Shown one piece after another: positions 3,366 to 28,469 of a stretch of 64,000 nucleotides of DNA (positions are counted from its first letter, which is position 1; each line of letters begins with the position of its first letter). The stretch covers positions 1-64,000 of the forward strand of contig NW_026553742.1 in assembly GCF_027596085.1 (NCBI RefSeq), given 5' to 3'. Origin of the DNA: Anoplopoma fimbria. Its lineage: Eukaryota > Chordata > Actinopteri > Perciformes > Anoplopomatidae. The notes under the pieces are model-generated. The model searched no databases. It was not told where the DNA came from and was given only the letters and a program-made list of their open reading frames with translations. A program made the position numbers and the translations under genes.

Positions 3366-3424
<59 letters not shown>
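3366..3424. repeat. (TTGA)n microsatellite
   Basis: About fourteen tandem GATT/TTGA tetramers without interruption, then two diverged units (GACTGACTG). Simple sequence repeat. Confidence 0.97.
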
Positions 3425-3425
<1 letters not shown>

Positions 3426-4040: not shown

Positions 4041-4121
4041 ATGGCCGAAACACAGACACCTCCACAGCAAAGACACTTCTGGATGATGGATGAGGCAGCT
4101 TTTCACCCTCCATCTGAACAG
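4041..4121 (+). other. Possible isolated exon, unknown product
   Basis: An 81-base open stretch (27 codons beginning MAETQTPPQQ) lies between a good acceptor (TTTTATCAG) and a good donor (CAG|GTACAT). The acceptor and 25 bases before it are repeated beyond the L1 at 13526-13566. I do not recognise the peptide. It may be a fragment of a gene cut by the L1, or chance. Confidence 0.2.
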
Positions 4122-4137
4122 GTACATGTATTTTCCT

Positions 4138-4149
4138 CGCATCAAACTT
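4138..4149. repeat. L1 target-site duplication, 3' copy
   Basis: CGCATCAAACTT, identical to 13332-13343. It borders the A-rich 3' end of the minus-strand L1 (seen as T-rich on the plus strand just after 4149). Confidence 0.85.
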
Positions 4150-4200
4150 TTTTGTATATATATTTTTTATTTTACATAATGAACAACAAAGATAACAAAC

Positions 4201-4328
4201 AGGAACAGCAACAAAAACAACAACAACAACAGCAAGAATAACAAAAACAAAAAACAAAACATGAATGAAAGTTCATGAATACATTCATGAGTCACCCCAA
4301 CACACACACACACACACACACACACACA
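4201..4328. repeat. CAA-rich and (CA)n simple repeats in the L1 3' UTR
   Basis: A CAA/CAG-rich tract at 4201-4242 is followed by a perfect CA run at 4299-4328. Both lie in the 3' UTR of the minus-strand L1. Confidence 0.9.
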
Positions 4329-4468
4329 TTTTTCCCCCTCTTTCTTTCTTTGGAGTAATATGACAGGTACCACCAAAGAACCAATAACAACAACAATAAT
4401 AGTGAATAACTAAATAAAAATTCAATAAACAAGAGTGAACAAAATGGCTCATCATTGTCAGTGTTGTA

Positions 4469-7400
4469 TCAGGATATATCCTCATCAATTTGATTTTCTT
4501 TCAAGAGTGACATGATTTGACTCAGAGAATCTGTGTGGTCACTGCCCAAATCTTGCAAGACAGAAGCTGCTTGTTCCATAGAAACAAGTTCCAGAAAGTC
4601 CTTCTGCCAGTTAACTATATCAAAACAATTTGGTTTCTTCACTTTCCAGTTCATAAGGATTAACCGTTTAGCTGAAAGGAAGGCTAGGTCTAATAAATAT
4701 TGAATTTTTTTTGTGGTTGCTCCCTCTATTTGTTTTCCTAGAAGACCCACTGCTGGTTCTAAAGGAAAGTTGATTTTAAATAATTTACATAGATAATCTC
4801 TGATTTTTAACCAAAATGTCTGTGTTTCTGGGCAGTGCCACAGTAAGTGGATAAGAGTTCCATTCATTCCACACCCATGCCAACATTTATCTGTAACACC
4901 ATTATTCATTTTCTTAAGTTTATGTGGAGTGATATAGGATCTGAACAGAATCTTAATTTGTATGATTTTATACCTGACACATTTTGAAAGATTATTTGAG
5001 CGGCTCAAGATAGTTTCCCATTGTTCTGATGTTAAATTTATGCCCAAATCTTTCTCCCATTGTGCTTTTATAACTTTAGAAGAGATGCAAGAAGAAGTAC
5101 AACATAACAGTTTATAGATTTTAGATACCTTTCCACTGCCAGAGACTGCATCCCTGAACTTAATATCAAAAGAATCATTATCTGCTAACATGATATTTGC
5201 AAAGCTTTGCATGATGGACTTAATTTGAAGGTACTGGAATGTATCCGAGTTATTCAAACCAAATTTCTTCTTGAGTTCATTGAAGGAGAGCATTTCTCCG
5301 TTGCTTCCCAGGATATGACCTAGGTTGGTGATGTTTTTTCTTGCCATGATTCATTACTAATAGGTTTCCCACCGGCCTTTAGTGCTAGGTTGTTCCATAT
5401 GGGGCATGAAGGTAAAACTAAACCATTCATTTTGAGTTGTTTGTGTATTTCATTGACAATTCTACACGAGAATGAAATTATGGGATTTTTTATGATTTTA
5501 TTACATTTGGTGTGATACCAGAGTGAGGCTAAGGAGACATTCTTATAATTCACCTCGACAAGTTTCTGCTCCAGCCATCTCCAGCTACCCATAGCTGCCT
5601 GCTCCTTCTCATACGCCCAGGATAGGGGATAAATACCATTGTACGCCAAATAATAAGTATGAATGTCTGGTATCCCTAGTCCACCCTTTTTCCTGTGGAT
5701 AGATAATTTTTTCAGACTTATTCTAGGTTTTTTACCTTTCCATAAAAATAAAGAAAATAGTGTGTTAATTTCTCTGAACCATCTCTGGGGGACTTCTAAT
5801 GGGATGGCGGTAAACAGAGAAGCTAATCGTGGGAGCACATTCATTTTGAGCACTTCTGCCCTCCCCCATAGTGATAAAGGTAGGTTTGTCCATCTGTTCA
5901 AATCGTCCCTCACAGTTTTCAATAATTTGGGGCCATTTAACTCAAAAATGTTATCAATCGGGGATGTAATATTAACACCAAGATATCGCATACCATCGGT
6001 TTTCCAAACAATAGGTGTTGAACTCAAATGACCTGAGTGTGTGAGACGATTCAGGGCGATGGCCTCGCTCTTTAACCAGTTGATCTTGTAACCACTAAAC
6101 ACACCAAAATCACTGATTAGTTTAAGCAGATGGGGCACAGAAAGAGCAGGTCTAGACAATGTCAATAAAATGTCATCCGCGTAGAGATTAGCTTTAAAGT
6201 CATAATTAAAAAGTTTGATACCTGTTATACTCTGATTTTCCCTGATAGCACAGGCAAGAGGCTCAAGTGCTAGAGTGAAGATAACTGGGGAGGCTGGGCA
6301 GCCTTGTCTGGTGGATCTAAAAAGGTGAAAAGGGGGTGAGATTAAACCATTGGTTTTGACACATGCGACCGGATTGTGGTAGAGGGCCTTAATCCATTGT
6401 ATGCATACTGGTCCAAAGCCATACTTAGTCAGAATATGGAACAGATAAGACCACTCTATCCGGTCGAATGCTTTCTCAGCATCAAGAGAAATTGCAACTG
6501 CAGGATGTTGAAGAGATGCAGCCTCTGACATTACATGGAACAGTCTTCGCATATTATGGGCAGAATAACGACCAGCAATAAAACCAACTTGGTCCAGATG
6601 GATTAATGATGAGATGACTTTCTCCAGACGCATTGCAAGAGTTTTAGCGAAGATTTTATAATCGTTATTTAACAAACTTAGGGGGCGGAAATTGTCCATT
6701 TTCGTGTGATCTTTGCCCGGCTTTGGCAATAGCGAGATAACAGCCATATTCATACTTTGGGGCATGGATTGAGTTGCAATAATATCCCTGTACAACAAGG
6801 TCAAGAATGGAGATAATACTTCCTGAAAACACTTATAGAAATCAACACTAAACCCATCTTGACCTGGAGCTTTACCAGCAGCAAGAGCTTTAATGGCTGC
6901 CTTAACCTCCAGTTCCTGGACATGTTTGTCCAGATATGTCCTATCGTCCTCTTTCAACTGGGGGAGAGGTGCACTTCTAAGAAAGTCATCAATCGTATCA
7001 GGATTAAATCTACATTCTGATTCATACAACTTTGAGTAATATTCTTGGAATGCCTGGTTTATTTCTTTCTGCTCACATACTAAAGATCCATTCTGGTCAT
7101 CTATAGCCGTTATGGATGAGTTACTCTCAATTTGTTTTAATCTTAGTGCGAGCATTCTGCCAGCTTTGTCGCCTGTTTCAAAATGTTTCCTCTTCAGTTT
7201 ATATAATGCAGTAGAGGTTTCTTCATGTATAATTGACTGTAGCTCTGTTCTCGTGAGTAACACCATTGTTTTTAATTTCTGATCATTAGGATCTCTCATA
7301 TGCTGCATTTCCAGGTTCTTTAGCTCTAACATCAATTCATTTTTTCTTTGACTTCTTTCTCTGTGTTTTGCAGAGTTATAACTAATACACCAACCTCTAC

Positions 7401-8285
7401 ATGTGGCTTTAATAGCCTCCCAAACTGTCTGAACAGATTCAACAGAGTTCATATTCATCTCAAAAAAATCAGATATTCTTACATTAATCATAGCAACGAA
7501 TTTCTTGTCCCATAGAAGCATGTTATTAAACTTCCATTGTTTTGTTTTATGCACATTAAAGCAAGGTGAAAATGTAACAGAGATGGGAGCATGATCTGAG
7601 ATTAAGATGGTGTGAATCTCTGAATTTATCACATTTTCTGTTATTGAGTTTGACAGGAGCAGGTAATCTATTCTAGAGTACGAATTATGTACTTTAGAAT
7701 AAAACGTATATTCACGAGAGAGTGGGTTTACACATCGCCAAACATCAGTTACCCCCAACAGCCTTTGAAGCTCATCTAAAGCAGTGGAGAGGGCAGCATC
7801 TGTCGGTAGGGGGCGACTTGAACGATCTAACAGTGGATTATTTACCAGATTCATATCCCCACCAAGTAGAATAGGATCCCCCACAAACTTTGATGCAAGA
7901 AGAGCTAACTTTGAAAGGAACTCAACTTGCCCAGAATTAGGGGCATAGATGTTTATGAGTGTAATTTTTTTGTGTTGAAGAATACCAGATACTATGATAT
8001 ACCTGCCACTGTTATCCACAATCACATCAGTATGATGAAAAGATATTTTTTTGATATCAGAATACTTGTGCCTCTTGATGCTCCATTCCCTGGCGCAGAG
8101 AATACCTGGCCAACCCATCTTTGCCTTAATTTTAACGATTCATTTTCATTCAAATGGGTCTCCTGTAGCATAGCTACATCGCATGAGAGAGACTTCAGAT
8201 GTGAAATTATTTTATAACGTTTAACTTTATTAGAGACTCCATTAATATTCCAACTGACAACCCTTATGGCATTAGAACTTGACAT
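4469..8285 (-). CDS. L1 ORF2: endonuclease and reverse transcriptase
   Basis: Makes the endonuclease nick and reverse-transcribes the L1 RNA at the target. The N-terminus begins MSSSNAIRVVSWNINGV, an APE-type endonuclease start, with QETHL and ISDHAPISVTF further on. The reverse transcriptase has FRPLSLLNNDYKI, LDAEKAFDRIEW, RQGCPASP and the YADD catalytic box near 6180. The end holds a CCHC-like knuckle (CWHGCGMNGTLIHLLWHC). Two frameshifts interrupt about 1,270 residues. One lies in a seven-T run at 8046-8052 inside the endonuclease. The other lies in a six-T run near 5333-5338, before the C-terminal part. Each is repaired by one extra base. The start at 8285 fits the usual L1 ORF2 beginning. 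Confidence 0.93.
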
Positions 8286-8526: not shown

Positions 8527-11500
8527 CAGGCCCGGATTAAGCAGTCACAGGACCCTGGGCACAAATGTTGGATGCCCCCCCCCCGAAAAAAAACCCAGTG
8601 CTGTGGCAGGTGTTTTTTATTATTAATGATTAGGCCTATTGTAGCCTATGTCACAACAGAACAGAAATGTTTCTATTGCATATTATCAACAAAGCATTAT
8701 ATGCTAAAACAAGACAAAGAAACATTTAACAAAGCTAAATGATATGCTAAAACCATCACCATCAAAATGAAATACTTTAATTATTTGTTTATTCGATTTG
8801 TTTATTCAGTTTATACTAGCCTAGCCCTATCAACTTATGAATTGCTGAATGAACATATGAACATAGAGTTTTTTAATGTGACTGGCATCATCCCTTGGTC
8901 TCCTTTCTTCACTCAGGATCCCCTATCACGGTCTGGTTGTCTGTCTTTCTGATTTCCCCACTTCTGTCCTCTCTTTCATCTTGATCCTTAAACTAGTACT
9001 CCTCTCCGCCAGGGTATGTCTATATAATGAATGGCAATACATTACACGTAGAAGTTAGTAAACAGAAGTAAGTCTGAATACAAATATGTAACATTAAATG
9101 AGAAATAATATATATATGTTTATGTCTCCCTCCCAGACGCACCTGTTAGAAAAACTTCTTACGGGCTCTCCTATTAGCAAAGTCAGTGATAACTTCATCG
9201 AATTCCAGGCTCCTGAGTAGCTCCGTCTCGATGGCCATGAGTGACAGCGCGCTGAGGCGCTGTTGCGTCTGTGTTGTTCTAAGCTCATTTTTAATTCTGG
9301 CCAGATGTGAAAATGATCGTTCCCCTTCACAATTTGTCACAGGCAGGGTCAAAAATACGGAGAGCTATAAAAACGCTTGGGAAAGTTGATTGCAGACCAT
9401 GTTTTAAGATCATCTTCAAAAGCTTTTGAGGAGACTTATCCTGTTCGTTTTGTATGAAGCTTCTGAACTGGATTATTTCATTGGCCAAGTCGACATCTAA
9501 ATTAGATGGGTATGACATGCAGAGCACTTCTGCCTGTTCACGGATACTGGTCAAATTGTCAGTTTCCATAAAGAGCACCTTAAATTTGTCCAAAACATCC
9601 CGATATGCGTCCATTCTGTGCCCCAGGCAGCTAACCAGTTTGTCAATTATGACATTGAATGTTGCTACCTGATATTGCTCTTGGCCTGTCAGTGTTATTT
9701 CGTGTCGTGTGCTTTCGTCAGAAAAAACTTTGCGCTTTTTGCTACGATGCAGTTCATCTCTATATGACTGGCACACATCGGGAATGGTCTTTGCAGAGTT
9801 TTCAAATTGGTGAAATTGGTCGCGAAGTGACATAACCCATGATCGTAAAGAGTCCAGAAGGCGTATAGCTGTCATCAGATCTATGTCAACCCTTTGCAAT
9901 GACTCACTTGTGACTTTGAATCTGCTTAAAATACAGTTCCAAAACTGCGCCATGAATGCCATGTCAAGACTGCCTAACTTCGACCACAAAGCAGCTGCCT
10001 CATCCCGTGTTTTACGATTCTCACCCATGTCATCTGACATACACTTAAGTATGGCCCTAATCTGTGCATAATTTCCACAAAGTGCCTTGGATGAATCTGC
10101 ACGAGCACTCCATCGAGTGGATGAAAGTGATTTCAGCGTCGAGTCAACCTTAATGTCCGCGTTCTTGAAAAAACGGGCCCATCTATGTGTGGAAGCTGCG
10201 CAAAATGCGTACAGGGACTGTAATAGATCAAAAAAACTACTTGCAACTGGGCAGCAGTCTTCTACAGTATTTGTGCCCACCAAATTGAGTGAGTGTGCTG
10301 CACATGGTATGTAATGGATTAAAGGATTTTTGTTTTTTAAATGAGCTTGCAGCCCATTATAACGCCCGACATGTTACTGGCATTATCGTAGGCCTGACCT
10401 CGACAATTAGCGAGGTCTACGTTTAGACTATCAACCATAGCTAGTACAGTGTCAGCCAGACTTTCCCTGTGTGACTCTCAATTGGCTCAAAGCCAAGGAA
10501 TCGTTCGACTACGCTGCCCTCTTTACTGACAAACCTAAAGACGAAGGTCAGCTGGTCAGTGTGTGAGAGATCAGGAGTAGAATCCACAATCAAAGAGAAA
10601 TACTTTGCCTCTCGTATCTCTGCAGCTATAGTGGCTTTGAGTTTTTCGCCCATTTGCTGAATTAAGTCCTCGCACGTAGTGGAGGACAGGTAAGACACAA
10701 TGCCCCTACCCCTCTGCCCATATTTGCTAATATGCTCAGCTAAAAATGGATCAAATTTAGAGATGACCTCCAACATGCCTAAGAAATTGCCATTGTGTGG
10801 CGAGCCAAGTAACTCGTTATCCCCCCGAAAGGCTAGTCCACGTTCAGAGAGGAACTGGATCACTGCAATCACCCGTTTCAAAACCTCTCGCCAATATCGT
10901 TTCTCACCCTCTAGCTGCTGCACCAGTTCTGCATTTATGGCCCCCTTGCCACCAGTGACAGAGCGGTGATGGAACGTTAACATGCATTCTGAATGCTGGC
11001 AGCTCTTTTCATGGTCAAGAAGACGTTCAGGGTGTTTCCAATCCGAGAAACCAGAAACTAATTGGTTCTTTTTCAGAGAAAATAGCATGCATGGAAAGCA
11101 GAATACATTTCCAGTGGAAGGCGAGTACACTAACCACTCTCTTGTAACTTTCTCGCCATTGTGGAGAGCACACTCAAAGATGTCATTCGTGAGCGAGCGA
11201 ACCCTACCTCCCAAGCCCCCATCGCGGACTGATGCGGGATACTTTTTCCCACGATTCTGGAACGCTGCAAGCCCCCTGTCAATCAGAACGCCGCGAGCTT
11301 CCTCTGTTATCGTCCCCCATATAGCCGGATCAGTTTCTGTGTACATCCATGTTTTAGGCTGAGGCTGAGAGCAGTTATCGTCAGAAGAGGGGAGCGAGCT
11401 GCAGATAGGCTCCTCAGGTGGTGGCGGCGGTGGAGTGCTGCAGTTAAAGTCCATTCTGGCCTCTTGGCTAACGGTTTGGTCTTGTAGTCTGACATCTTGC

Positions 11501-12201
11501 TCAACCACCACAGAAGTATTCTGTCGTGTAAAAAAGGTGTTTATTGATGGCAGGCTCCTTAGCATTGACGCATTCTTTTCTTCTTTTTCTCTTTTCTTTT
11601 CGTTTGCTCCATCCACTTCTTTCACTCATGTTTGCACTAAGTTTGTTAAGTTTTGCCGTTAATGTTAGCAACGTGAGAGAGAAAAGGGGTGGGGGCATGT
11701 AACTATGTTGCACCAGCGGAACAGTAGTAAATACGTTGCGGAGATTTGGCGGGAGTAAGTTCATACCATACCCATTGATAAAATGTCAGTGCAACCGTAT
11801 TAAATTCCCCCCTAAACAAACACCATCTGACACACAACATGAATGTAAAGTGAAGGCGCAGAGATCTTTACTTATGATGTACAATATACATTAATATGTG
11901 TTAATGAAAACACCAATGAACACAGTATTTCATCGATCAAACTGATTTTTAGAGAAACAGTGTAGTTTACAGCCTGTACAGTACATTCCGCTACACTCAA
12001 ACAGGGGATACTTGGTAAACGTTTCTAATTGAAACCGAGGCAACCGGCGTGCGCTGATATTGACTCATTCGCAACTTAAAGGGGCCCGCCGAAAAAAAAA
12101 AAAAAAATAAATAAAAAAAAAAATTGGACGAGTCTTGGGCCCTCTGGCTGGGCGGGGCCCTGGGCACGTGCCCATAAAACCCATTGGTTAATCCGGCCCT
12201 G
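8527..12201 (-). mobile_element. Autonomous-type hAT transposon nested in the L1
   Basis: The ends are inverted repeats: CAGGCCCGGATTAA at 8527 and TTAATCCGGCCCTG ending at 12201 (one mismatch). Flanking 8-base duplications CGTCCAAC (8519-8526 and 12202-12209) are the hAT hallmark. The 3,675-base element holds one transposase gene on the minus strand. It lies in the L1 ORF1-ORF2 spacer, so it came after the L1. A homopolymer-rich subterminal zone (C10 and A8 on the left, A15 on the right) lies inside both ends. Confidence 0.95.
9146..11629 (-). CDS. hAT transposase, ZMYM1-like (frameshifted)
   Basis: Cuts and joins the transposon ends. Order from the N-terminus: a basic leader, a TTF-type zinc-finger region (FCFPCMLFSLKK, LDHEKSCQHSEC), an RNase H-like core (YFSLIVDSTPDLSHTDQL, and a typical hAT NxSGxYNGLQ stretch after frame repair near 10372), and a C-terminal dimerisation part (NCEGERSFSHLARIKNELR) ending at 9146. 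The architecture matches the DUF4371/ZMYM1-like hAT family. Three frame breaks (near 10472, 10372 and 9347) are each healed by one extra base in a run of A, G or T. A fourth is likely near 11590, where a basic MSERSGWSKRKEKR leader and the downstream frame meet. The start at 11629 is my choice because of that leader; 11625 in the other frame is the alternative. Confidence 0.88.
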
Positions 12202-14576: not shown

Positions 14577-14675
14577 CTATGGCTATACAACACACAGGTA
14601 TGACATGTAGGTGAATTAAAGGGTCAAACATGAATAAATGGAACACGCAGAAAAACAAATGGATTGTGTCTTACA
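14577..14675 (+). repeat. Direct repeat, copy 1
   Basis: Matches 15002-15098 with scattered differences. Shared blocks include TGGCTATA, AATTAAA, GAATAAATG and the 17-base ATGGATTGTGTCTTACA. Confidence 0.75.
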
Positions 14676-15001
14676 GTCTTACAAAAAACATATAATTATT
14701 TTCAGACACCATTAAATATTTAGATATAAATATATAAGTTTTAGAATTTTAAAATTCTAATTTAGAGATGAACCTGTAAGTCCAGTGCGACTTTTTTAAG
14801 GCCAAATAATGACAGATTATACATTCACATTAAATTCACAAGTTTCTTTAATCGTTTAACAGCAACCATTTAAACAACAAACATCCAACATTTGTGGAAC
14901 CTTTATTTTAGCAGCAACGAAACAACGAAAAGGCTGAACAAACTTTCCATATTCCACTAGGAACCGTCTAAGGATATCTTTTTTTATAACGATTATGCCA
15001 A

Positions 15002-15098
15002 GATGGCTATAAAACGCAAATATGTCCTTAAGTTAATTAAAAGGTCAAAATGAATAAATGTAACATGCACACAACGAAATGGATTGTGTCTTACACAG
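15002..15098 (+). repeat. Direct repeat, copy 2
   Basis: Second copy of the 14577-14675 repeat, about 425 bases downstream in the same orientation. Confidence 0.75.
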
Positions 15099-15423
15099 AT
15101 GCTAACCGTGGCAACATGTGCTGATTTAAACTGATTTAAAAGGAAAAACATTTGTGAGCTGAGCTTTCTGTAGACAAAACAGCGATTTCGCTTCAGGTGG
15201 CTCCTCACAGTAGAGATTTGGTTCTTCACTTGAGGGTGCATACATAGTAAACATCAGAATTTTACTGGAGAAAAAAAGAGAAATCTTAAGGGTTGTAACC
15301 ATTGTAGTTTGTTATATCATAACTATATTTGAAAACAGCATCCTATTTGGGCGATTCTGACCCACAATCCAGTGCGCAACGAAAGTGACGCAGGCTCCCC
15401 TCGACGGAGCCTCCATATGAAAA

Positions 15424-16316
15424 CTATGGAGTTAGAATCATGCCAAAACCCCGCACACACGCTAAACGTGTTTTGCTCACGCATAACGATTCACACGCAC
15501 ACAAAACGTGTTTTACTCACGCACAATGATTCACACACACGCTCAGTGTGGTTTGCAAATACAAAACATCATTCACAAACTAATGCATTTTGCTTCAGAA
15601 ACAAATACAGTTTTAAACAAAGTACAAAAAAAAAAATCCTTCAAGTACACAAAACAATTCGACAAGTACGGAACACTGAAAGCTGCGCGGGGATCGGAAG
15701 GCATTTGCGCACGGATCAGCAAGGCGGAAAATTAGTGCCAAAAGTTACGTGACAAACAAATGTCCTGTGATTCACAATACACAACAACAGGTGGCGTTGT
15801 TGCCAAACCGCACGGATTCCGTACGGTTTCCGTGCGGTTTAGCACTTTTACCGCGCCATTCTAGGGCCAGTTAGTAGCCTTCTTGGCTTTCCATAGAATC
15901 CACACACGGTTGGCCGGCATCAAATAAAGATTTTGGGGAGAAAAAAGATCGTCCTGGCGGCCTTAAACTGACTCAACAGCGCCACCTGCTGTTGTGTAGT
16001 GTGAATCACTGGACATTTGTTTGTCATTTTCCTCCTTGCTGATCCGTGCGCAAATGCCTTCCGATCCACGCGCAGCTTTCAGTGTTCCGTACTTGTAGAA
16101 TTGTTTTGTGTACTTGAAGGATTTTTTTTTGTACTTCGTGTAAAATATACTGTATTTGTTTCTGAAGCAAAATGCATTAGTTTGTGAATGATGTTTTGTA
16201 TTTGCAAACCACACTGAGCGTGAGTAAAACACGTTTTGTGTGCGTGTAAATCGTTATGCGTGAGCAAAACACGTTTTGCGTGTGTGCGGGGTTTTGGCAT
16301 GATTCTAACTCCATAG
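15424..16316. mobile_element. Fold-back (long inverted-repeat) element, non-autonomous
   Basis: Two arms of about 340-375 bases (15424-15799 and 15975-16316) are inverted copies of each other around a spacer of about 175 bases. The outer ends are CTATGGAGTTAGAATCATGC and its complement, and four A flank both sides. Within each arm a unit of about 38 bases (AACGTGTTTTGCTCACGCA and a near copy) is repeated in tandem. No transposase is seen; the apparent ORFs in the arms mirror each other. The element lies directly downstream of the SET/recombinase gene. The transposon class is undetermined. Confidence 0.8.
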
Positions 16317-16365
16317 AAAACAAACAGACGGATATAAAAGCAAGAGGCCATATCAATGCGCAATG

Positions 16366-16763
16366 TTATGATGAAATAAATAAGTAAAAGTATGTCGCAA
16401 TTGTATGCCTACTGCATCCTAACGAGATTATTTTTATGGTCGGATGTAGTAAGTAGAATAGAAAAAAGAAAGCATGCGATTTGGAACGCAGGATTAGAAA
16501 AATATATATCATTTTCTGATCATTCAGAGGTAACCATTTTAGGGTTTCCTTTTTTTTTTTCATTGTAATGCCACGATTCCTGACAAAGTCTCTGATGTTT
16601 TGTACAGTGCGACCAATGAGAGTAGGATGTTCGGCTGTCTTGCACTGTTTGCACTCAATCATCGTGACCAGGTTTCCTTTTCGGATCTGTCCTTTAAAAT
16701 GTCTCATCACAGCTGCAACCTCCTTGGGAGACCACTTGTACTTTTTTGCTCTCCTGGCATTTT
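16366..16763 (-). CDS. Terminal exon: basic C-terminal module
   Basis: Acceptor TTCTTTAG, then a module starting ENARRAKKYKWSPKEVAAVM, with CKQCKTAEHPTLIGRTVQNI and RDFVRNRGI. The pattern (a helical stretch, a C-x2-C pair and a repeated basic end) is shared with the C-terminus of related fish proteins. After an eleven-A run (16550-16560) the frame continues 60 more codons of unfamiliar sequence to a stop at 16366. A base gained or lost in that run would end the protein earlier, so the true stop is uncertain. Confidence 0.7.
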
Positions 16764-19700
16764 CTAAAGAAATTACAAAACAAACAGATCATCAATAAAA
16801 AAAAAAAAAAAAAGGTTTAACACACACCATCCCTCATGTTTACTTCCTGCAAATGAAGGAGAAAAGGAAGGGGCAATTCCCAGTTTCTCCTCTTGTACTT
16901 CTGATATCCAAAATGAATAGTAGGCCTACTGGTATTAGAAAATGCTAAAAAGAATAAATATAAGCAGTGTCTTTTCTATATTAACTGTAATGCTGTATGT
17001 TATTACTCTTGTTAATTCAATTATTTCCGAGAATCAGGGATGTGGCAATAAATCTTTGTTATATTGTTTTATACATTTTTGGTTCTGTGCTTATTTAAAA
17101 AGTTAACTATGTGAATACATTATTAAATGCATTTAAATAGATATAGATAAAGTAGTTGCTGGCTGCTGAGTTGAAAACATTTCTATTGCCCATTTACCTG
17201 TAGGAGTACCTTCTTGGTTGGCTGCAAGATCTATGGATGACATGTAGAAATTGATATTACAACATGTATTACTTCTAACCGTACATGCAATCAAACAAAG
17301 ACGACATGTTGGTAGACTAAGGTTGAAGGCTAACCTTGTGAGGACAACACAGACATGCCAGCAGGCTCAACAGATTGCCCGGCTCCCTCCTCAACTGCAG
17401 AGCCTAAAACAGTTTATTATACTTTATTAAATGCAATAAACAGACAAAAGGAAATCCTTATACCAGTGAAGTAAAATAGGAAATTATTTGCAGCCTTTTT
17501 TTGTTGTGTTGAGACTTTAAAGGTTTCAGTTAAAGTAAAGTAGTAGTAGAGGTACTACATGTTATTTATGGAGAAAACTAAAATCCATGCTTTCATATTA
17601 CTGTTCCTCTGAATAAAGTCTTCAGAACATGTTGTAGGCTGTGAATGATTATTTAGTGTAAATAAAGCCTGCACCTGTAACCAGAGTTTGCTAGTACAAA
17701 TTTGATTGTTTTAAACACTTTTTACCGAAGTAGGCTCTCCCGTTTAAGTATAAGCAGACATATCTCATTAACATGGACTACTTGTACATAATAATGAACA
17801 ATTCTGTAAAAGAGAACTAGTCTTACTACTCTCCGTGGGTGATAAATGACTTTATTCCTCCACAGTAACTGACTTGATTTGAATTGAAATTGCAAATGGT
17901 TAGGAATAAATTATAGTAAGTAGTTACGCTGTTAAAGGACTAACCTTTTGATGACAGAAAAGATGTGTCTGAATGTTCAACAGGTTCTTCTATTCTGTTC
18001 TTTCCTGCAGAATCTGAAGTAAAGTTCAACAATGGTCACATGATTTTATAAATATTATACAATTCATATTAGAAAATCATGCTGCACTTACCAAAGTTGG
18101 TCTGTGGATCAATGGGGGGAATTTCTTCCTCTGCGTCACTCGCCTCACTTTGATCGATATCACTCAAATCCAGGTTTTCTAACAAAACAAATTCTTGCCA
18201 TTCTTAAAAAACCATTTCTTGGTTAGGATTTAGTTCCTAGATTGGTCAAACATCTGATAAAATGCCGTTGCTACCTTTATAAATTATGTAGATGAATTGC
18301 TATAGATCCCATTTTGCCATTTGGCAAACAATTGTAATTTTTAACAACACAACTTTAAAAGGCATTACCTTCAATTTCGATCTCGTCCAGTGTTTTGCCT
18401 CGAAGACTTGAAAGAGACCCTTTCTCCATGGCAAGCAGCAGTTTTGATATTTTAGCCAGCTGGGTGGTAGCCTCTGGAAGTCTGTAATATTCCCTGTGAA
18501 CGCGTATGTCATGTCCAAGGAAGTCAGCAACTTGGTCTAACTCGTGATTCTTGAGGTTAAGGACCTGTGACAACGTTGCAACATGTTTCCGTAACTGCGT
18601 TGACCTGAGGAGTTCCGGATTCTTAGCCCCACATTCACTTGCATAAAGTCTTAGACAGTCCTGTCCTCTGTAAGGGGTCAGACAACGAGGCCTTGCAAAA
18701 AGGAATGGGTTTTCATCTGGAACGCCACAGTCTTTTCTTTTATTTATCAGGTGCATTAAGGCATTAACCATATCTGGTGACAGCAATAAAGCAACCTTTC
18801 GCCCTCTTTTACCCCTGAGCTCGACACGACTGAAGTGGTTACAAAGACGTAGTTCAAATTTTGTGAGTCCAACTGCTACATCTTCATGCAAGGCACTTTT
18901 GTCCCTCTCAAGAAAGCCTTTCAGTTGCATTTTCGAAACTTCTCCTCCACGTCTCCGGTTAAATAGTATGATGTTTGCCATAGTTGTTTTGCACAGTTTG
19001 CCATATGATTGTGGTGATGATGTATTTTCCAAGTCTTTAAATGCTTCTTCTGCAGTTTTTGAAAGATGTTTGTGAAGACGTTGCACGTCCTCTGTGAAAG
19101 GCAGATTGGAAGGCTTGTTAAAGAGTCGCTCATTCAAGGTAGTTAAAGCTCTGTGTGACACGAGTTCAGACCACTTTGTGGCAAACAAGGTTTTGAATGT
19201 CTGAGTTGATTTTGTCAGCTCGCTGTCTTCTGCCATTAGAGCTCTGCAGTGTACAATGTCGTTTATCTTCTGCAATGAGTGACCCAGCTTAAGCGCAAGG
19301 CTTGGAGTGTCATAGCCATTCTTGTCTTCATCAAACCCTGAAACTTTCTTGACAGCCTTGATAACTGATGGAAAATTTGCAGGTTTTACAGCATCCTCCA
19401 AAGTTGCTATTGAGAATTCTTTGCGCAATGTCAGCAGAAGTCTTCCAATCTCTCTGAGTTTCTGTCGAATATATTCCGATTTGGTAGGATCCTGTCCATG
19501 TTTGTTAAAAAATGACTGCGCCAGCTGAAGAATGCAATAGTCACTGCGCACTGTAGCAGTTATCTCGTCATCTTTCATCACAGTTAAAAGCTTCCACACA
19601 CCTTGGGATATTTGTTCATTCATGACCGACTCAGACATAGCGGCTAAAGCCAATACTTTGGTTTTTCCAATCACTGAATTGGCTCCAGCTGGTTTTGAAG

Positions 19701-22700
19701 AACAGTTGCGAGCATGTCGCCACAGATCTCTTCTGAGATATAATGCCTGGCAGTACATGCAGTGGACATACTCTTTTTGGTTATATTTGTTCTTGGCTGT
19801 GCGCGTCTTAGTTTTAGCAATCCAGCTCCACTCTTTAAAACCTCTTTGTTATGGATGTAGTTCCCTCTGTTGCGTAGCTTAGTAAGCCCTTCAATGCGCT
19901 CTTTTGACCTCTTCGGAAGAATTAACACACGAGCAACTTCAGCATGTGTCTTCTCATGAGTTATTAAGTGGCGTGTAAACTTTGTCTGTTGCTTTCCACA
20001 AATGTAGCAGTAACTTTTATTTCTGAGAGAGGAGGATGTGTTTGAGCTCTGCATGCCTTCAGCTTCAGCTCCATCATTGACAAGCATGTCTTCAGCATCA
20101 AAATCCTCAACTTCAGCCTGACTTCCTGATATTTCAGGATGATTTGAGCTGGCTGCATCTTGAGGCAGTGATTCTGCAGCTTCAAATAATGGTTCAATAT
20201 CTTCCTCTATGAGTCTGTCTCGATAGTGCCTCGATAGTGCCACCAGGAAGCCAGGAGGCTTCCTGGTGGACACCTCAGAAATCTGTTCTTCAAAATGTTT
20301 TGGATCAATTTTTGAAAGCTCTAAAATTTCTTCCGCAGAGCCGGTTGAATCACTGTGAGTATCAGGCACATATTCCTCCTCTGATGAGGTCATCTCACTT
20401 GAACTTTGTTCTTCAGAGATCTGATAATCAAAAATAAAAAGGATTACTGTTTTGTGTACTATTCTCAGCATACTATTGAGAATAATTCCAGGAAACACTT
20501 ACTTCTGGCAGATGTACAGTAGTGGTCTTCATGTTTTTAACATAGCAACGTTTGTGCCAGGACTTGGAGCAAACTAGACAGAAAATTAAGAATTTTGTGA
20601 AGGAAGAATTAATAGTCATTTTATGCAATTCGTTAAAGTGACTATTTACAAGAAACGTAGCAGGGATGGTCCTTTATAGACCAATGTTTGTGTCCCATTG
20701 TTGAAAATGACTTAAGTGCAGCTGCAAAAGACACAGGAATGTGTTAAATTATTTTCCCCACAATCCATGTTTACATAACCAATTTCTGATTAAATTGATA
20801 ACTACGTAACAAAAGAGTTGTTGACCAGAGAACAAAGATTTCCATAGATCTAGCCCCTCTAAGTGCACCTAATTGATGCATTAAGAGGCTGAACCAACCA
20901 TGTCACCAACCATGTATATGTATGCATGTAGACAGTGCTTCAAGTATACAAATTCTAAAACAACACAACAGGGTGTTGCACTGACATGTTCAGCCTGGCA
21001 GCAAAGAAGATACAATCAACGGTTTCAAGGTGGCAACCCAAGTTTAGTGTCATAAAATTGATACCAAATCAAATGTGACCCAAATGTAGTCATATTACCA
21101 CATTTTAGTTCAGGCGTTATGTTCAAAAGATTAGGAGAGACACCCCAAAACAAACAAACTCACTTTTACATCTCTCACCGATCCATTTCAGGGCTGCATA
21201 GGGTCCTCGACATATGACACATTTGTCTAAACTTGGCATATCTTCAGAAACCAAGTAATGTTCACAGTCCTGTTGACCAAAAAGAACAATTGAAAGATCA
21301 TTTTATTATTCCTGCCACTTCAAAACGCTTTTTTATTCACAAGGCATAGAATATCAAAAAATTAAATGGATTCTATGTATTTTGCTTCTATTGTATACTG
21401 TATAAAATGTAATTTATTTATTTAAAAGAAATGCACAGTATTAAATTCAAAGGTTAACTGATTGTTGATATATACATTGTACATCAAAAAAAAAAAAGTA
21501 GAGTCAGTCCATCTAAAGTTAAAAGATGTTGGACAGGAAGGAAAATAAATTATTAAGATATTTTTTTCACACCAAGACGGTTGGTGCACATTATGAAAGG
21601 GATCACCGAATCGTGTATTGAGAAATTGACAGAAGATATGATATTGTGAGTTTACAACTGGAGCATAAATTCAAATCTGAGCAAACAGACTAGACTAAAC
21701 TAGATGTACACAGTCCTGCTAATGACTATATATGTTCAGCTGAGTAATACACAGGATATGTGTAACTACATACTTGAGAATATATCACTTGTGAGGTTCT
21801 GACTCTAAAATATAAAAGTAATTCGGGATCAGCTTAGCTCATTAATCTTGTCTATGATTGAGCTGCATGTGACGACATATGCAGTCTCTCACAGGGAAAG
21901 AAGAATCACTGAATATGAGTCTCTAGTTAAAAATAACAGTCAATGGAGATCAGTTTACCTTGTAAGAATTGTCTCTGATGGAACTGCATGACCCCACAAC
22001 AGCAGGCTGGACATGTGTCTCTGTGGACATCTAAAAGGAAAAGGACAACCACTAAATATATGATTGTTTAAATGTACAAAGCTCACAGTCCTCCTAACGT
22101 CTGCACCTGTCCAGGCGAGTATTACACAGGACTTGTGTATGTACAAACTGCTGAATGTAATTTTTAGGAGTTCAAAGCTGTAAAATACAAAAGTAAAGGA
22201 GATCAGTTTACCTCGTCAGAATGGTCTCTGAGGGAACGGCATGAGTCCAGATCAGTAGGCTGGACATGTGTCTCTGTGGACATCTAAAAGGAAAAGGAAA
22301 ACCACTAAATATTAGTTGGTTTAAATGTACAATGCTCACAGTCCTCCTAATGTCTGTACCTGTCCAGGTGAGTATTACACAGGACATGTGTATCTACATA
22401 TTGCTGATAATACTTCTCATGACTTCTAACTACATGGTGGCACGGTGACCTGGTGATTAGCAATGCTCACAGTCCTCCTAATGTCTGTACCTGTCCAGGT
22501 GAGTATTACACAGGACATGTGTATCTACATATTGCTTGTAATACTTCTCATGACTTCTAACTACATGGTGGCACGGTGACCTGGTGATTAGCACTTTTGC
22601 CTCACACAGCGAGAATGACCCGGGTGAGGTTCCTGGGTTTGGCCAGGCCCTTTCTGTGTTGAGGTTACATTTTTTTCTCCTGTTTCAGTTTTCTCTAGGT

Positions 22701-25700
22701 ACTCTCGGTTCCTCCCATCACCAAAAATAGGAATTTTAGGTGAATTGGTGACTCAATTGCCCCTAGTTGTGAATATGAGTGAGTGTGTCTGTATATGTTT
22801 ATCTGTCTCTGTATGTCTGCTCAGAGATGGACTGGCTACCAGTCCTGGTTAAACCCTGCCTCTCGCCCTAAGACTGCTGGGATAGGCTCCGCCCCTGCGA
22901 TCCCCGAATAGGGGGACAAGCAGTAGAATGGATGGATGAAGTTTTAACTAGTCTACCAGTCAATGGAGATCAGTTTACCTTGTAAGAATTGTCTCTGATG
23001 GAACTGCATGACCCCACAACAGCAGGCTGGACATGTGTCTCTGTGGACATCTAAAAGGAAAAGGACAACCACTAAATATATGATTGTTTAAATGTACAAA
23101 GCTCACAGTCCTCCTAACGTCTGCACCTGTCCAGGCGAGTATTACACAGGACTTGTGTATGTACAAACTGCTGAATGTAATTTTCAGGAGTTCAAAGCTG
23201 TAAAATACAAAAGTAAAGGAGATCAGTTTACCTCGTCAGAATGGTCTCTGAGGGAACGGCATGAGTCCAGTTCAGTAGGCTGGACATGTGTCTCTGTGGA
23301 CATCTAAAAGGAAAAGGAAAACCACTAAATATTAGTTGGTTTAAATGTACAATGCTCACAGTCCTCCTAATGTCTGTACCTGTCCAGGTGAGTATTACAC
23401 AGGACATGTGTATCTACATATTGCTGATAATACTTCTCATGACTTCTAACTACATGGTGGCACGGTGACCTGGTGATTATGTACAATGCTCACAGTCCTC
23501 CTAATGTCTGTACCTGTCCAGGTGAGTATTACACAGGACATGTGTATCTACATATTGCTTGTAATACTTCTCATGACTTCTAACTACATGGTGGCACGGT
23601 GACCTGGTGATTAGCACTTTTGCCTCACACAGCGAGAATGACCCGGGTGAGGTTCCTGGGTTTGGCCAGGCCCTTTCTGTGTTGAGGTTACATTTTTTCT
23701 CCTGTTTCAGTTTTCTCTAGGTACTCTCGGTTCCTCCCATCACCAAAAATAGGAATTTTAGGTGAATTGGTGACTCAATTGCCCCTAGTTGTGAATATGA
23801 GTGAGTGTGTCTGTATATGTTTATCTGTCTCTGTATGTCTGCTCAGAGATGGACTGGCTACCAGTCCTGGTTAAACCCTGCCTCTCGCCCTAAGACTGCT
23901 GGGATAGGCTCCGCCCCCTGCGATCCCCGAATAGGGGGACAAGCAGTAGAATGGATGGATGAAGTTTTAACTAGTCTACCAGTCAATGGAGATCAGTTTA
24001 CCTTGTAAGAATTGTCTCTGATGGAACTGCATGACCCCACAACAGCAGGCTGGACATGTGTCTCTGTGGACATCTAAAAGGAAAAGGACAACCACTAAAT
24101 ATATGATTGTTTAAATGTACAAAGCTCACAGTCCTCCTAACGTCTGCACCTGTCCAGGCGAGTATTACACAGGACTTGTGTATGTACAAACTGCTGAATG
24201 TAATTTTCAGGAGTTCAAAGCTGTAAAATACAAAAGTAAAGGAGATCAGTTTACCTCGTCAGAATGGTCTCTGAGGGAACGGCATGAGTCCAGATCAGTA
24301 GGCTGGACATGTGTCTCTGTGGACATCTAAAAGGAAAAGGAAAACCACTAAATATTAGTTGGTTTAAATGTACAATGCTCACAGTCTCCTAATGTCTGTA
24401 CCTGTCCAGGCGAGTATTACACAGGACTTGTGTATGTACAAACTGCTGAATGTAATTTTCAGGAGTTCAAAGCTGTAAAATACAAAAGTAAAGGAGATCA
24501 GTTTACCTCGTCAGAATGGTCTCTGAGGGAACGGCATGAGTCCAGATCAGTAGGCTGGACATGTGTCTCTGTGGACATCTAAAAGGAAAAGGAAAACCAC
24601 TAAATATTAGTTGGTTTAAATGTACAATGCTCACAGTCCTCCTAATGTCTGTACCTGTCCAGGTGAGTATTACACAGGACATGTGTATCTACATATTGCT
24701 TGTAATACTTCTCATGACTTCTAACTACATGGTGGCACGGTGACCTGGTGATTAGCACTTTTGCCTCACACAGCGAGAATGACCCGGGTGAGGTTCCTGG
24801 GTTTGGCCAGGCCCTTTCTGTGTTGAGGTTACATTTTTTTCTCCTGTTTCAGTTTTCTCTAGGTACTCTCGGTTCCTCCCATCACCAAAAATAGGAATTT
24901 TAGGTGAATTGGTGACTCAATTGCCCCTAGTTGTGAATATGAGTGAGTGTGTCTGTATATGTTTATCTGTCTCTGTATGTCTGCTCAGAGATGGACTGGC
25001 TACCAGTCCTGGTTAAACCCTGCCTCTCGCCCTAAGACTGCTGGGATAGGCTCCGCCCCCTGCGATCCCCGAATAGGGGGACAAGCAGTAGAATGGATGG
25101 ATGAAGTTTTAACTAGTCTACCAGTCAATGGAGATCAGTTTACCTTGTAAGAATTGTCTCTGATGGAACTGCATGACCCCACAACAGCAGGCTGGACATG
25201 TGTCTCTGTGGACATCTAAAAGGAAAAGGACAACCACTAAATATATGATTGTTTAAATGTACAAAGCTCACAGTCCTCCTAACGTCTGCACCTGTCCAGG
25301 CGAGTATTACACAGGACTTGTGTATGTACAAACTGCTGAATGTAATTTTCAGGAGTTCAAAGCTGTAAAATACAAAAGTAAAGGAGATCAGTTTACCTCG
25401 TCAGAATGGTCTCTGAGGGAACGGCATGAGTCCAGATCAGTAGGCTGGACATGTGTCTCTGTGGACATCTAAAAGGAAAAGGAAAACCACTAAATATTAG
25501 TTGGTTTAAATGTACAATGCTCACAGTCCTCCTAATGTCTGTACCTGTCCAGGTGAGTATTACACAGGACATGTGTATCTACATATTGCTTGTAATACTT
25601 CTCATGACTTCTAACTACATGGTGGCACATTGACCTGGTGATTAGCACTGTTGCCTCACAGCGAGAATGACCCGGTGAAATTCCTGGGTTCAGCCAGGCC

Positions 25701-27492
25701 CTTCCTGTGTTGCGCTTACATTTTTTCTCCTCCGTGTCAGTGTGGGTTTTCTCTGGGTACTCTTGCTTCCTCCGACCACCAAAAACATGCATTTTAGGTG
25801 AATTGGTGACTCAATTGCCCGTAGGTGTGAATGAGAGTGTGTCTGTATATGTTTGTCTGTCTCTGTATGTCTGCTCAGAGATGGATTGGCTAACAGTCCT
25901 GGTTAAACCCTGCCTCTCGCCCTAAGACTGCTGGGATAGGCTCCGCCCCCTGCGATCCCCGAATATGTGGACAAGCAGTAGAATGGATGGATGAAGTTCT
26001 AACTAGTCTACCAGTCAATGGAGATCAGTTTACCTTGTCAGAATTGTCTCTGATGGAAATGCATGAGCTCACATCAGCAGGCTGGACATATGTCTCTGTG
26101 GACATCTAAAAGGAAAAGGACAACCACTAAATATTAGTTTGTGTAAATGTACAAAGCTCACAGTCCTCCTAACGTCTGCACTGGTCTAGGTGAGTATTAC
26201 ACAGGACTTGTATGTGTACAAACTGCTGATTGTAATTCTCAGGCGTTCACAGCTGTAAAATACAAAAGTAAATGGAGCTCAGTTTACCTTGTCAGAATTG
26301 TCTCTGATGGAACTGCATGAGTCAGGAGGCTCGACATGTGTCTCTGTGGACATCTAAAGGGAAAAGGACAACCAATAGTACATACCAGTGGCGTATTAAA
26401 AAAGGATTTCAAAACATAAGGTGAACCGAGATCATCTTACCTGTTCAGTGCTTTCCTTGAGTGAATGGCATGTGACCACTTCAACAGATTGACTTTGATT
26501 CTCCTGAGAAATGTAGTGGGGAAAATTACTCACTAAAAAATAGTTTTTGTTATTATTTTACTGATGGATGTTATGACTCAAATAAACAATCATGCATATA
26601 GTTAACGAAAGACAACTTGTCCTTGACTGAAAATAAAACTAATCAGTTCACTTGTTTCTATTGAATGCCAATAACAATCTAACGGTTAAATTGGAACAAA
26701 GAAGTGAGCTGAATTATTGCTTACAGTGTTAGAAGTGTCAAAAAGCTGCCGAAATATTCACTTTCTGACATGTCTTAGTATGCGCAAATACCTTGTTTCT
26801 CCATGGCCAATGGGAATCACCGTAATTGTATGTGATTTCTTCTCCGGGGCTGATGTCTTTGGTTGCAAATAAACACAGATGGGGCTTCCCATCCAATCTT
26901 ATTATTTTCATTTCGCTGTTTGGGTTTACATGATCGTCATTAACCAGTCTCCCAAGCGATCCATCCTCTTTGGCAGCATCAACACTGAAATAAAGAAAAC
27001 AATTACAAGTATACTGTGTTAGGTTAGAGTTCATTGAGTCAATTGATTCTATGTCTGGATACAAATTTAGAAAATACACCTTTTATTAGATACATACCAT
27101 AACTGTTGTCCATTAAAGCGAAAATCAAAGATGTAAACCTTAAGTGCATCATGGTACACTTTCAATCTGTTTTCACATTCCCTTTTAGTTATGACTTCCC
27201 CTCTGTACTCAATAAGGAAATCTCGTTTTTCAAAGGTCTGGCAGCTGAACACACCTCGACCTAAAAGGCACACAAGATGAGTGAGGAAAAGTGATTACGT
27301 TTGAAGAATAATTTGACAAGTAGTAGTTATCTATGTATCAATGCTCTTACTAACTAAAAAAGATGGCAACTCACCTTTAAATGAATCAATGTATTTTACA
27401 GCAAACCCATCCTTGTCTTCACCCAAGAAGGAATAATAGGGAGCGTCTTGTTTGGAATTCCTCTTAGATCTCTGTGACCTTCTTACCGCCAT
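16366..27492 (-). CDS. SET-domain / tyrosine-recombinase-like fusion gene with amplified repeat exons (whole locus)
   Basis: Twenty-three coding segments on the minus strand join in consistent phase: 27492-27375, 27260-27098, 26984-26792, 26503-26441, eleven repeat exons (26353 down to 21959), 21269-21179, 20573-20503, 20420-18369, 18178-18092, 18013-17945, 17403-17335, 17230-17198 and 16763-16366. All introns are GT-AG. The product is about 1,400 residues: KMT5A-like SET domain (about 40-158), 24-residue repeats (about 180-441), CxxC/C-W-H-C zinc-like segment (about 442-495), acidic linker, C2H2-like and C2HC-like fingers, tyrosine-recombinase-like domain (about 960-1150) and a basic C-terminus. 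A one-base loss in a five-T run (19774-19778) is the only break. The ATG at 27492 is the first after an in-frame TGA at 28526-28524 in the 5' exon. Relatives of the C-terminal half are familiar as uncharacterised multicopy fish genes. The cellular role is unknown; chromatin or transposon-related action is inference. Confidence 0.8.
17198..18178 (-). CDS. Four small phase-1 linker exons
   Basis: Exons 18092-18178 (87 bases), 17945-18013 (69), 17335-17403 (69) and 17198-17230 (33) all start and end in phase 1 with good GT-AG sites. They encode acidic, Ser/Glu-rich sequence (ENLDLSDIDQSEASDAEEE in the first). The two 69-base exons look like duplicates: both begin with SA after the split codon and end in FLSSK or VLSSQ. 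Any of them could be skipped without frame loss. Confidence 0.72.
18369..20420 (-). CDS. Large exon: acidic linker, two zinc fingers and tyrosine-recombinase-like domain
   Basis: The 2,052-base exon opens ISEEQSSSEMTSSEEEY (acidic). It then has a C2H2-like finger (CYICGKQQTKFTRHLITHEK), a second CxxC...H...C finger (HCMYCQALYLRRDLWRHARN) and a long helical region. The C-terminal part has the tyrosine recombinase order: RRRGGE (first Arg), LRKHVAT (second Arg), LGHDIRVHREYYR (LGH plus candidate Tyr). The His of the classic HxxR box is Thr (TQLR). A missing base in T5 at 19774-19778 splits the finger from the core. Recombinases of this type cut and join DNA; activity here is unproven. It is not obviously the DUF3504 (Crypton-derived) type. 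Confidence 0.75.
20503..21269 (-). CDS. Two exons encoding a zinc-binding-like segment
   Basis: Exons 21179-21269 (91 bases, ends phase 1) and 20503-20573 (71 bases) join to give about 54 residues. They hold CVIC, then KWIGVCSKSWHKRCY: a CxxC pair followed by C-x3-W-H-x2-C, as in treble-clef/PHD-like knuckles. Acceptors are CAACAG and TCTAG; donors are G|GTGAGA and GAA|GTAAGT. The exact zinc-domain family is not recognised. Confidence 0.7.
21837..21905 (-). pseudogene. Degenerate twelfth copy of the repeat exon
   Basis: The minus strand here still resembles the repeat exon (CATGCAGCTCAATCATAGAC against CATGCAGTTCCATCAGAGAC). The donor has changed from GTAAAC to CTAAGC and the acceptor side is lost. 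It is presumably no longer spliced. Confidence 0.5.
21959..26353 (-). CDS. Eleven tandem phase-0 exons encoding a 24-residue repeat
   Basis: Exons at 26288-26353 (66 bases), 26034-26105, 25397-25468, 25144-25215, 24507-24578, 24255-24326, 24002-24073, 23232-23303, 22979-23050, 22212-22283 and 21959-22030 (72 bases each). Every one has a TTTTAG-type acceptor (CTTTAG in the 66-base exon) and a GTAAAC donor, and starts and ends between codons, so any number can be spliced in without frame loss. Units begin MSTETHVQP and end in SIRDNSYK (type A) or SLRDHSDE (type B), the types mostly alternating. Four type A copies are identical, as are four type B copies; one further B copy differs by one base. 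Low-complexity Ser/Thr/Asp/Glu-rich sequence suggests a flexible spacer. Function is not known. Confidence 0.82.
22567..22938 (+). repeat. Teleost dispersed repeat (SINE-like), copy 1
   Basis: Begins GGTGGCACGGTGACCTGGTG and ends in GAATGGATGGATG. The order of landmarks (GTTAGCAC-like, CCTGGGTT, GGGATAGGCTCCGCCC) is that of a very common fish interspersed repeat. It lies in an intron of the repeat-exon array. Confidence 0.75.
23590..23961 (+). repeat. Teleost dispersed repeat (SINE-like), copy 2
   Basis: Nearly identical to 22567-22938; multiplied as part of the 1-kb unit rather than by separate insertion. Confidence 0.75.
24731..25103 (+). repeat. Teleost dispersed repeat (SINE-like), copy 3
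   Basis: Nearly identical to copies 1 and 2 and at the same place within its unit. Confidence 0.75.
25621..25993 (+). repeat. Teleost dispersed repeat (SINE-like), copy 4
   Basis: More diverged from the other three than they are from each other (for example GTGTCAGTGTGGGTTTTCTC near 25735). This marks the older end of the array. Confidence 0.75.
26441..26503 (-). CDS. Exon 4, diverged founder-like copy of the repeat exon
   Basis: A 63-base phase-0 exon (21 codons, ending TCHSLKESTEQ) with acceptor TTCTCAG and donor CAG|GTAAGA. Its second half (C-x-SL-x4 plus acid) resembles the 24-residue units that follow (SCRSLRDHSDE). This suggests the amplified exons arose from it. Confidence 0.65.
26792..27492 (-). 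CDS. SET domain exons 1-3 (KMT5A-like)
   Basis: Three exons (27375-27492, 27098-27260 and 26792-26984) encode 158 residues. SET domains move methyl groups from S-adenosylmethionine to lysine; KMT5A acts on histone H4 K20. Recognisable blocks are GRGVFSCQTFEKRDFLIEYR, QLCVDAAKEDGSLGRLVN, KPHLCLFATKDISPGEEI and TYNYGD, in the order seen in KMT5A. The GEE-x3-Y-x-YGD end with its catalytic-type tyrosine is kept. The usual Asn-His pair of the cofactor pocket reads Asn-Asp (VNDDHVNPN). The start is supported by an upstream in-frame stop. Closest relation to KMT5A is judged by eye. Confidence 0.85.
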
Positions 27493-27499
27493 TTCCTGC

Positions 27500-28469
27500 A
27501 AAGATTAGATGTTAATGAATTAAGCGACTATCTATCGATCTTTATATGATTTGATTTATTTATATTTAGCTATATATTACTATTATTAGCAATCATCTTT
27601 TTAATGCATTGTTATATCTGGATATTTATGACTTTGACTTAGCTGATTAGTACAACAGTTATCCTACAGTTTCTAATAATGTCAAAGATTGATCTTGACT
27701 TGAAGGCAACCATGATGCTGTTGTGACCAAGAATGAAACCGAGTTTGACACCTCTGATATAGACCATGTAGGGATGGGCTGATATGGCCTAAAATGGTTT
27801 GGTATGAATTGAATCCCTTCACGGAAACGGTAGGAACTGATGTGTAAAACTTATTATGGAAGTGTTTCTGAATGGGTTATACGGTCCCTTTGCAAAGCTA
27901 AATTGATATAGATAATAATATGAAAAAATATATATTTTACATATCTCAAAACTCAAAATTAAAACTCAGCACTTCATGCTGCAAAATAGTGTAAACAATC
28001 ACAAATAATGCTGATATTTTAAATTAAAACAGTACAACAGGCTGTTTTCTATAATGCAAAATAGAGAAAATGTTGTCACCAACAATTGCTCACTTCTTCA
28101 AGAACACAAAACTAAAGTGGATGTTGTACACAGTACTCCAATTAAAACGGTGAAATAGCCTAATGCAAACGGCAAAAAGGTTGCTAACAGTAATCTCTCA
28201 ATTCAAGAACACAATATGTAAACGATTCGGATCTTTAACCCAGGTGATTCAGGAGCCATTCAGCTTGTTCAGGAGGTGCAAATGACACCAGTTTAATCTA
28301 GCCTGTACAGCACTGTGCAACTGCAGATGCCAGGACTAAATCAGGACATGATTTGGATATGGATTTGTTCAATAATGTGCACTGTACCTAGTTAAACAAT
28401 TACGTTTTGCCTAGTAGTAAATATAAAATGAAAACATACATAATATTGAAAATTAAATGTCAGCCTTAC
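27500..28469 (-). other. First intron of the SET/recombinase gene
   Basis: About 970 bases between the untranslated exon and the ATG exon. AT-rich; no other gene or clear element seen. Confidence 0.45.

Follow-up and report, generated by a model that had tools for sequence, protein, structure and literature searches.

A KMT5A-type SET domain and a tyrosine-recombinase-like domain in one spliced gene of an apparently mobile, Crypton-like family in Anoplopoma fimbria

The 64,000-nucleotide stretch analysed here (the window; positions 1 to 64,000 of contig NW_026553742.1, Anoplopoma fimbria assembly GCF_027596085.1) contains a minus-strand gene that joins a SET domain and a tyrosine-recombinase-like (YR) domain in a single spliced frame, running from 27492 to 16366 when its exons are re-read from the window sequence. 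This gene is probably a decaying copy of a low-copy, apparently mobile Crypton-like YR element that carries a KMT5A-type SET domain. The only recognisable gene of the element is predicted to encode a spliced protein composed, in order, of a SET domain, a zinc finger, C2H2 fingers, a tyrosine recombinase and a tail. Transposons usually meet chromatin enzymes as opponents. If our interpretation is true, this would be a mobile element that brings its own chromatin writer, with SET fused to the recombinase; the influence of DNA transposons on silencing or target choice would become testable, and a route would be given by which SET domains reach new genes.

Structure of the window gene

The gene consists of 23 coding exons between a start ATG and the stop of the final open frame (Table 1). 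All 22 introns follow the GT-AG rule and the exon phases are compatible throughout, with the sole exception of the long exon, which is one base short; our re-reading thus agrees with the first-pass annotation of this DNA, which had noted GT-AG splice sites, fitting phases and one missing base. The modules follow each other as three SET exons, a linker exon, an 11-unit repeat, a C1/PHD-like zinc finger, two C2H2-like fingers, the YR-like domain and a tail. The zinc finger is split across two exons, with the full spacing H-x12-C-x2-C-x13-C-x2-C-x4-H-x2-C, and is weakly C1-like (E 0.00027, under the Pfam cut-off). The 11-fold linker-exon array differs in length from that of a related copy at C1:15.20 Mb, and the families A and B described below likewise have repeats in the equivalent region.

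The frame break in the long exon lies between the two C2H2-like motifs and gives rise to two overlapping open frames, P0002 upstream (20420-19674) and P0001 downstream (19848-18358). A programmed frameshift was considered and rejected. On inspection there is no canonical slippery site, and the frame continues unbroken through this region in copies of families A and B, so that mutation is the likelier cause.

Table 1 Features of the SET-YR gene and approximate extent of its window copy
Feature	Coordinates	Strand	Remarks
Approximate extent of the window copy	14581..28028	-	5' edge where the match to the C1:15.20 Mb copy stops; 3' edge where the match to the C1:14.97 Mb copy stops
Exon 1, start codon 27492, N-terminal flank of SET	27375..27492	-	
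Exon 2, SET domain, EYRG motif	27098..27260	-	
Exon 3, SET domain, VDA...LVND...YNYGD	26792..26984	-	
Exon 4, linker	26441..26503	-	
Array of 11 in-phase linker exons of 66 or 72 nt (MSTETHV...)	21959..26353	-	exons duplicated together with introns
Zinc-finger exon 1, H-x12-C-x2-C-x13-C	21164..21269	-	related exon in 7 of 20 fetched stretches
Zinc-finger exon 2, C-x4-H-x2-C	20503..20573	-	
Long exon, acidic linker, two C2H2-like fingers and YR domain	18369..20420	-	one base short
YR catalytic region, R300, K347, T417 (HxxR position), R420, H446 and Y455 of P0001	18409..18954	-	
Four small exons, 18178-18092, 18013-17945, 17403-17335 and 17230-17198	17198..18178	-	
Tail exon (WSPKEV...CKQC...FVRNRGI) and open frame to the stop at 16366	16366..16763	-	conserved part ends near 16549

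The SET domain is of the KMT5A type

The SET exons match Pfam PF00856 with an E value of 4e-20, and their best solved-structure matches are KMT5A/SETD8 chains (E 6e-24), with SETMAR far lower. Both results assign the domain to the KMT5A type, as had been proposed from the sequence at first sight. The motifs EY.G, VDA and Y.YG are shared with KMT5A, and EY.G and Y.YG are kept in the SET family. Unlike KMT5A/SETD8/PR-Set7, an H4K20 monomethyltransferase, the domain is joined to zinc fingers and a YR domain, and the Asn-His-Ser catalytic/SAM motif of KMT5A is replaced by Asn-Asp in the window gene, in families A and B and in a tandem gene pair at C10:12.52 Mb. In view of this replacement, the domain is a putative methyltransferase.

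SET exon 3 of the window is 57-71% identical to seven rows from other families. Relative to the window, its dN/dS is 0.11-0.15 in five of these seven rows, at dS values of 2.4-2.5 that are near saturation; no ratio is computable for the other two, the C10 pair. These values suggest that SET has been under purifying selection. The SET intron phases of family A are the same as those of the window gene.

The C-terminal part resembles tyrosine recombinases

Taking the active-site residues of the tyrosine-recombinase family as a guide, we place R300, K347, R420, H446 and Y455 of P0001 in the catalytic positions, with Thr417 in the position of the His in HxxR. Conventional searches return little. 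The YR domain matches no family in Pfam or NCBIfam and gives just two unnamed matches in PHROGs (E 0.18 and 0.53); none of 11 family members matches any recombinase family in Pfam; a PDB sequence search gives no meaningful match; and no relatives are found in IMG/VR, where the sole pattern match (L001) is due to chance. Two single-sequence AlphaFold models had pLDDT values of 44 and 39, and no fold search was based on them.

Evidence for the identity of the domain comes from a profile comparison, in which seven YR family members were set against a profile of XerD, XerC, FimB, FimE, lambda Int and Cre. The alignment is colinear over the Arg, the Lys hairpin, the LGH motif and the Tyr, with a score of 35.0 and an E value of 0.0015 at an hhalign probability of only 16.9. 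Control scores are lower: at most 21.5 in 150 column shuffles, 17.8 for the reversed profile and at most 21.0 for seven unrelated E. coli proteins. Single recombinases compared alone score 13 to 22, no better than these controls. R, K, R, H and Y are all kept in 8 of 12 open frames spanning both catalytic Arg sites (window, C6, C5125, C10, C14, C6145, C5153 and C15, which include families A and B), several of these frames being near-identical copies. Some catalytic residues are lost in the C10:12.52 Mb pair, C13 and C16. On good evidence from sequence profiles, as distinct from structure, we take the C-terminal part to be a probable YR domain. The earlier label "tyrosine-recombinase-like" therefore stands as far as the colinear match above controls goes, although Pfam assigns no recombinase family and the hhalign probability is low.

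The SET-YR architecture recurs in diverged families

We searched the 652 Mb genome, in which the window is contig C5956, and found 43 matches of P0001, counted as 31 places. Stretches of up to 10 kb each were fetched around 20 of the 30 other YR places, which with the window makes 21 examined. SET exons stand upstream of the YR exon, in the same order and on the same strand, in 10 of these 21 (nine fetched stretches plus the window, one of them weakly). Besides the window these are C1:15.20 Mb, C5125, C6:19.99 Mb, C5153, C5:1.71 Mb, both genes of the C10:12.52 Mb tandem pair and C10:20.53 Mb; the weak case is C4:3.35 Mb, where exons 1 and 2 alone are represented. They include families just 40-56% identical to the window YR. 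SET exon-3-type sequences occur at 14 places in the genome, nine of them among the SET-YR places, and with 14 SET and 31 YR places in 652 Mb about 0.02 SET-YR pairs within 15 kb are expected by chance. The tail domain has 19 genome matches, of which 15 lie on the same strand less than 20 kb downstream of a YR match; it is present in the window and in family A.

Compared at the level of sequence, these loci show SET and YR to be one gene architecture, old and common to diverged paralogues. Chance adjacency of two genes is rejected because order and strand recur in diverged families of the same genome. The single SET-plus-recombinase gene proposed by the first-pass annotation is thereby supported. 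The opposing view takes the two parts for independent neighbours, one a SET gene of KMT5A-like kind and the other a YR element, wrongly read together; it draws on the 11 of 21 YR places without SET in the stretch read: C1:14.97 Mb and C5145, which are alike and in which the SET part is replaced; C14, with a nested insertion; C6145 and C6165, with the contig start near; C5424, C13, C16, C15, C3 (in which the zinc exon is present) and C6:20.02 Mb. It also draws on five of the 14 SET exon-3-type places that have no nearby YR match (C6150, C20, C6154, C16:7.29 Mb and C14:2.52 Mb, the last of which may be an ordinary KMT5A gene). Several of the SET misses are contig ends or rearranged copies, however, and phases compatible through 22 introns, together with the same arrangement in diverged families against a negligible chance expectation, make this view very improbable.

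Near-identical copies on different chromosomes

Two families show dispersal of a unit about the size of the gene. The C5 and C6 copies of family A match at 99.5% identity through 11.4 kb and at 98.9% through another 0.66 kb, and their flanks show no similarity in about 6 kb upstream, nor in the downstream flank read, directly beyond a (TG)n run. On C5125 there is a third copy with a different flank after (TG)n, yet a later 0.5 kb segment is common with C5, and this copy may be allelic to that on C5. The 3'-end sequence of family A is found at just these three places in the genome. In family B, C10, C14/C5102 and C6145 have one 3' edge followed by (TG)n and then three different flanks, and a 5' edge is common to C10 and C5153. 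The first SET exon begins about 0.18 kb inside the 5' edge in family A and the second about 0.6 kb inside it in family B; at the other end, the shared stretches of both families end beyond the YR exon. Pfam searches with six of the longest open frames, taken from one copy of family A and one of family B, reveal no other enzyme (no DDE transposase and no reverse transcriptase). Since the edges lie near the gene limits and the frames searched contain no other enzyme, these near-identical copies on different chromosomes with unrelated flanks show that the spreading unit is approximately the SET-YR gene itself. The families with recent near-identical copies are among those with the complete residue set, apart from the shared His-to-Thr change, and the YR frame is open over 662 aa in C5125 and 672 aa in C5153. 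A still mobile element, one of the options raised at first reading, fits families A and B in these respects; the window copy itself is broken in frame.

In the mechanism that we envisage, the element would have been moved by its own YR as a Crypton-like DNA transposon, through excision and integration as proposed for Cryptons, the YR domain cutting and rejoining DNA via Arg/Lys/Arg/His and Tyr. The fingers and the tail would bind DNA, and the KMT5A-derived SET domain would methylate lysines of histones or of other proteins, either on the element or at the site that it targets; this methylation might shape chromatin or lessen silencing. We advance more tentatively, and with the balance leaning somewhat against it, the stronger proposal that this is a vertebrate YR transposon with its own KMT5A-derived methyltransferase in the same polypeptide, coupling recombination to chromatin modification, with C10:12.52 Mb as a possible nascent host chromatin gene.

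Several observations weigh against a mobile Crypton-like element. No terminal repeats or target-site duplications were found in family A or B, and the exact ends are uncertain. At their 3' edge both families carry a (TG)n run, a feature unusual for Cryptons and absent from the window family. Copies on C5, C6 and C10:20.53 Mb have a split YR frame, no start codon was identified for family A, and the window family is among many broken copies. All 16 rows reaching this position, the window included, have another residue in place of the His of HxxR: 13 have Thr, and Ser, Val and Ala occur once each. To these are added the low hhalign probability behind the YR assignment and the incomplete SET and YR places listed above. 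The (TG)n run was also considered as a target site of the YR and rejected: neither family has a 5' flank terminating in (TG)n, and C10 has such a run about 45 bp upstream.

Some of the same observations would suit a real SET-YR gene that is moved in trans by other machinery, for example a retrotransposon or another transposase, with YR now serving only as a DNA-binding part. The (TG)n run beyond the 3' edges varies in length, end repeats were not found, and the His of HxxR is gone. Against mRNA retrocopies speaks the retention of introns in the dispersed copies. Families A and B retain catalytic residues and yielded no other enzyme in the six frames put to Pfam. We consider movement in trans improbable.

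A separate observation concerns nested insertion in the YR family. The same 3.95 kb element, 99.8% identical between L015 (about 2001-5951) and L022 (about 645-4596), is inserted in two different YR-family copies, and a short repeated sequence borders it on C14.

A tandem pair that may be domesticated

At C10:12.516-12.531 Mb (L018 and L019), two SET-YR genes lie in tandem, with YR-exon frames of 645 and 636 aa. SET is kept (70-71% in exon 3) and YR catalytic residues are lost, a pattern by which the two genes may be candidates for domestication. The domesticated gene envisaged at first reading may thus fit this pair. A broader version holds that an old YR transposon gave rise to a host gene family, in which SET-YR has been domesticated as a chromatin regulator and segmental duplication, rather than transposition, produced the near-identical copies. 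Such a history would account for the pair, for the many introns, which are unusual for a DNA transposon, and for the apparent purifying selection on SET. We nevertheless think it unlikely as a general explanation: families A and B retain the YR residues, and their dispersed copies have edges near the gene limits, on different chromosomes and in unrelated flanks. A mobile Crypton-like element remains our preferred interpretation of the family.

Comparison with known systems

Cryptons are known from fungi, oomycetes, a diatom and animals including medaka (CryptonA); animal Cryptons are described as having neither a C-terminal domain nor terminal repeats, fungal and oomycete groups as having short direct repeats at their termini, and some oomycete Cryptons as carrying a C48 peptidase (Kojima and Jurka 2011, PMC3212892). 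The terms "SET domain" and "methyltransferase" are absent from its main text. The element described here resembles these Cryptons in its YR as the presumed mobility enzyme, its low copy number and, as far as the uncertain ends of families A and B allow, the lack of detected terminal repeats, and also in carrying an extra enzyme domain, SET in place of the C48 peptidase of oomycete elements. It differs in its many introns and its SET, C1-like and C2H2-like modules, and in a C-terminal tail domain of the kind that animal Cryptons are said to lack. It also differs from the R-H-R-Y tetrad: the window and families A and B keep R, R and Y, with Thr for the His of HxxR. Because this His is missing in every covered row, we term the element Crypton-like and do not file it as a Crypton. 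It is unlike DIRS and Ngaro retrotransposons, which combine a reverse transcriptase with the YR, in that a scan of the longest open frames of one family A and one family B copy, which was not exhaustive, shows no reverse transcriptase.

The same review describes the DUF3504 genes (KCTD1, KIAA1958, ZMYM2/3/4, QRICH1 and WOC), in which a Crypton-YR-derived domain is joined to regulatory domains (PMC3212892). The SET-YR genes share this type of composition, and the C10 tandem pair has likewise lost catalytic residues. Unlike the DUF3504 genes, however, none of 11 family members matches PF12012 at E up to 10, families A and B retain most YR residues, and a SET domain is present.

SETMAR is a primate fusion of SET with a mariner transposase, which is of the DDE type. 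It is similar in that a SET domain is fused to the enzyme of a DNA transposon, and it differs in the transposase, DDE as against YR, in the SET clade, which is KMT5A-like here, and in that here the fused unit itself seems to spread. For zebrafish, 58 SET genes have been listed, including setd8a, setd8b and setmar, and the word "recombinase" does not occur there (Sun et al. 2008, PMC2200798). Our literature search, limited to titles and the starts of abstracts and with a large protein database lying outside it, found no described SET-YR element, in keeping with the earlier remark that no described protein with this order was known to its author. Unnamed predicted SET-YR proteins are expected to exist in sequence databases.

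The window family and its surroundings

The window family has other copies at C1:14.97 Mb, C1:15.20 Mb and C5145. In two of them, C1:14.97 Mb and C5145, both window frames recur identical letter for letter, and the copy at C1:15.20 Mb has further frame changes; the window copy is a decaying, frame-broken member of this family. The unit common to the window and the C1 loci extends from about 28028 to 14581, with no (TG)n at its 3' edge. The upstream flank of the window matches the first C1 locus (14.95-14.98 Mb) and the downstream flank the second (15.19-15.21 Mb), 230 kb away and inverted. This split points either to a join made in assembly or to an inversion haplotype that the two copies mediated.

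A palindromic repeat with long inverted arms (15424-16316), immediately downstream of the tail exon, is probably a fold-back or MITE-like element. On the minus strand, a LINE-like reverse transcriptase frame lies at 4469-8139 (RVT_1, E 1.1e-33) and a DUF4371 frame, which we take to be hAT-like, at 9327-11625. Two long open frames of 243 and 423 aa on the plus strand at 1065-2877 have no Pfam match and are perhaps another transposon-like gene. Cysteine-rich exons on the minus strand (58484-59492), one frame of which reaches 27.3 bits against von Willebrand factor C at a cut-off of 27.6 bits, probably belong to a host gene.

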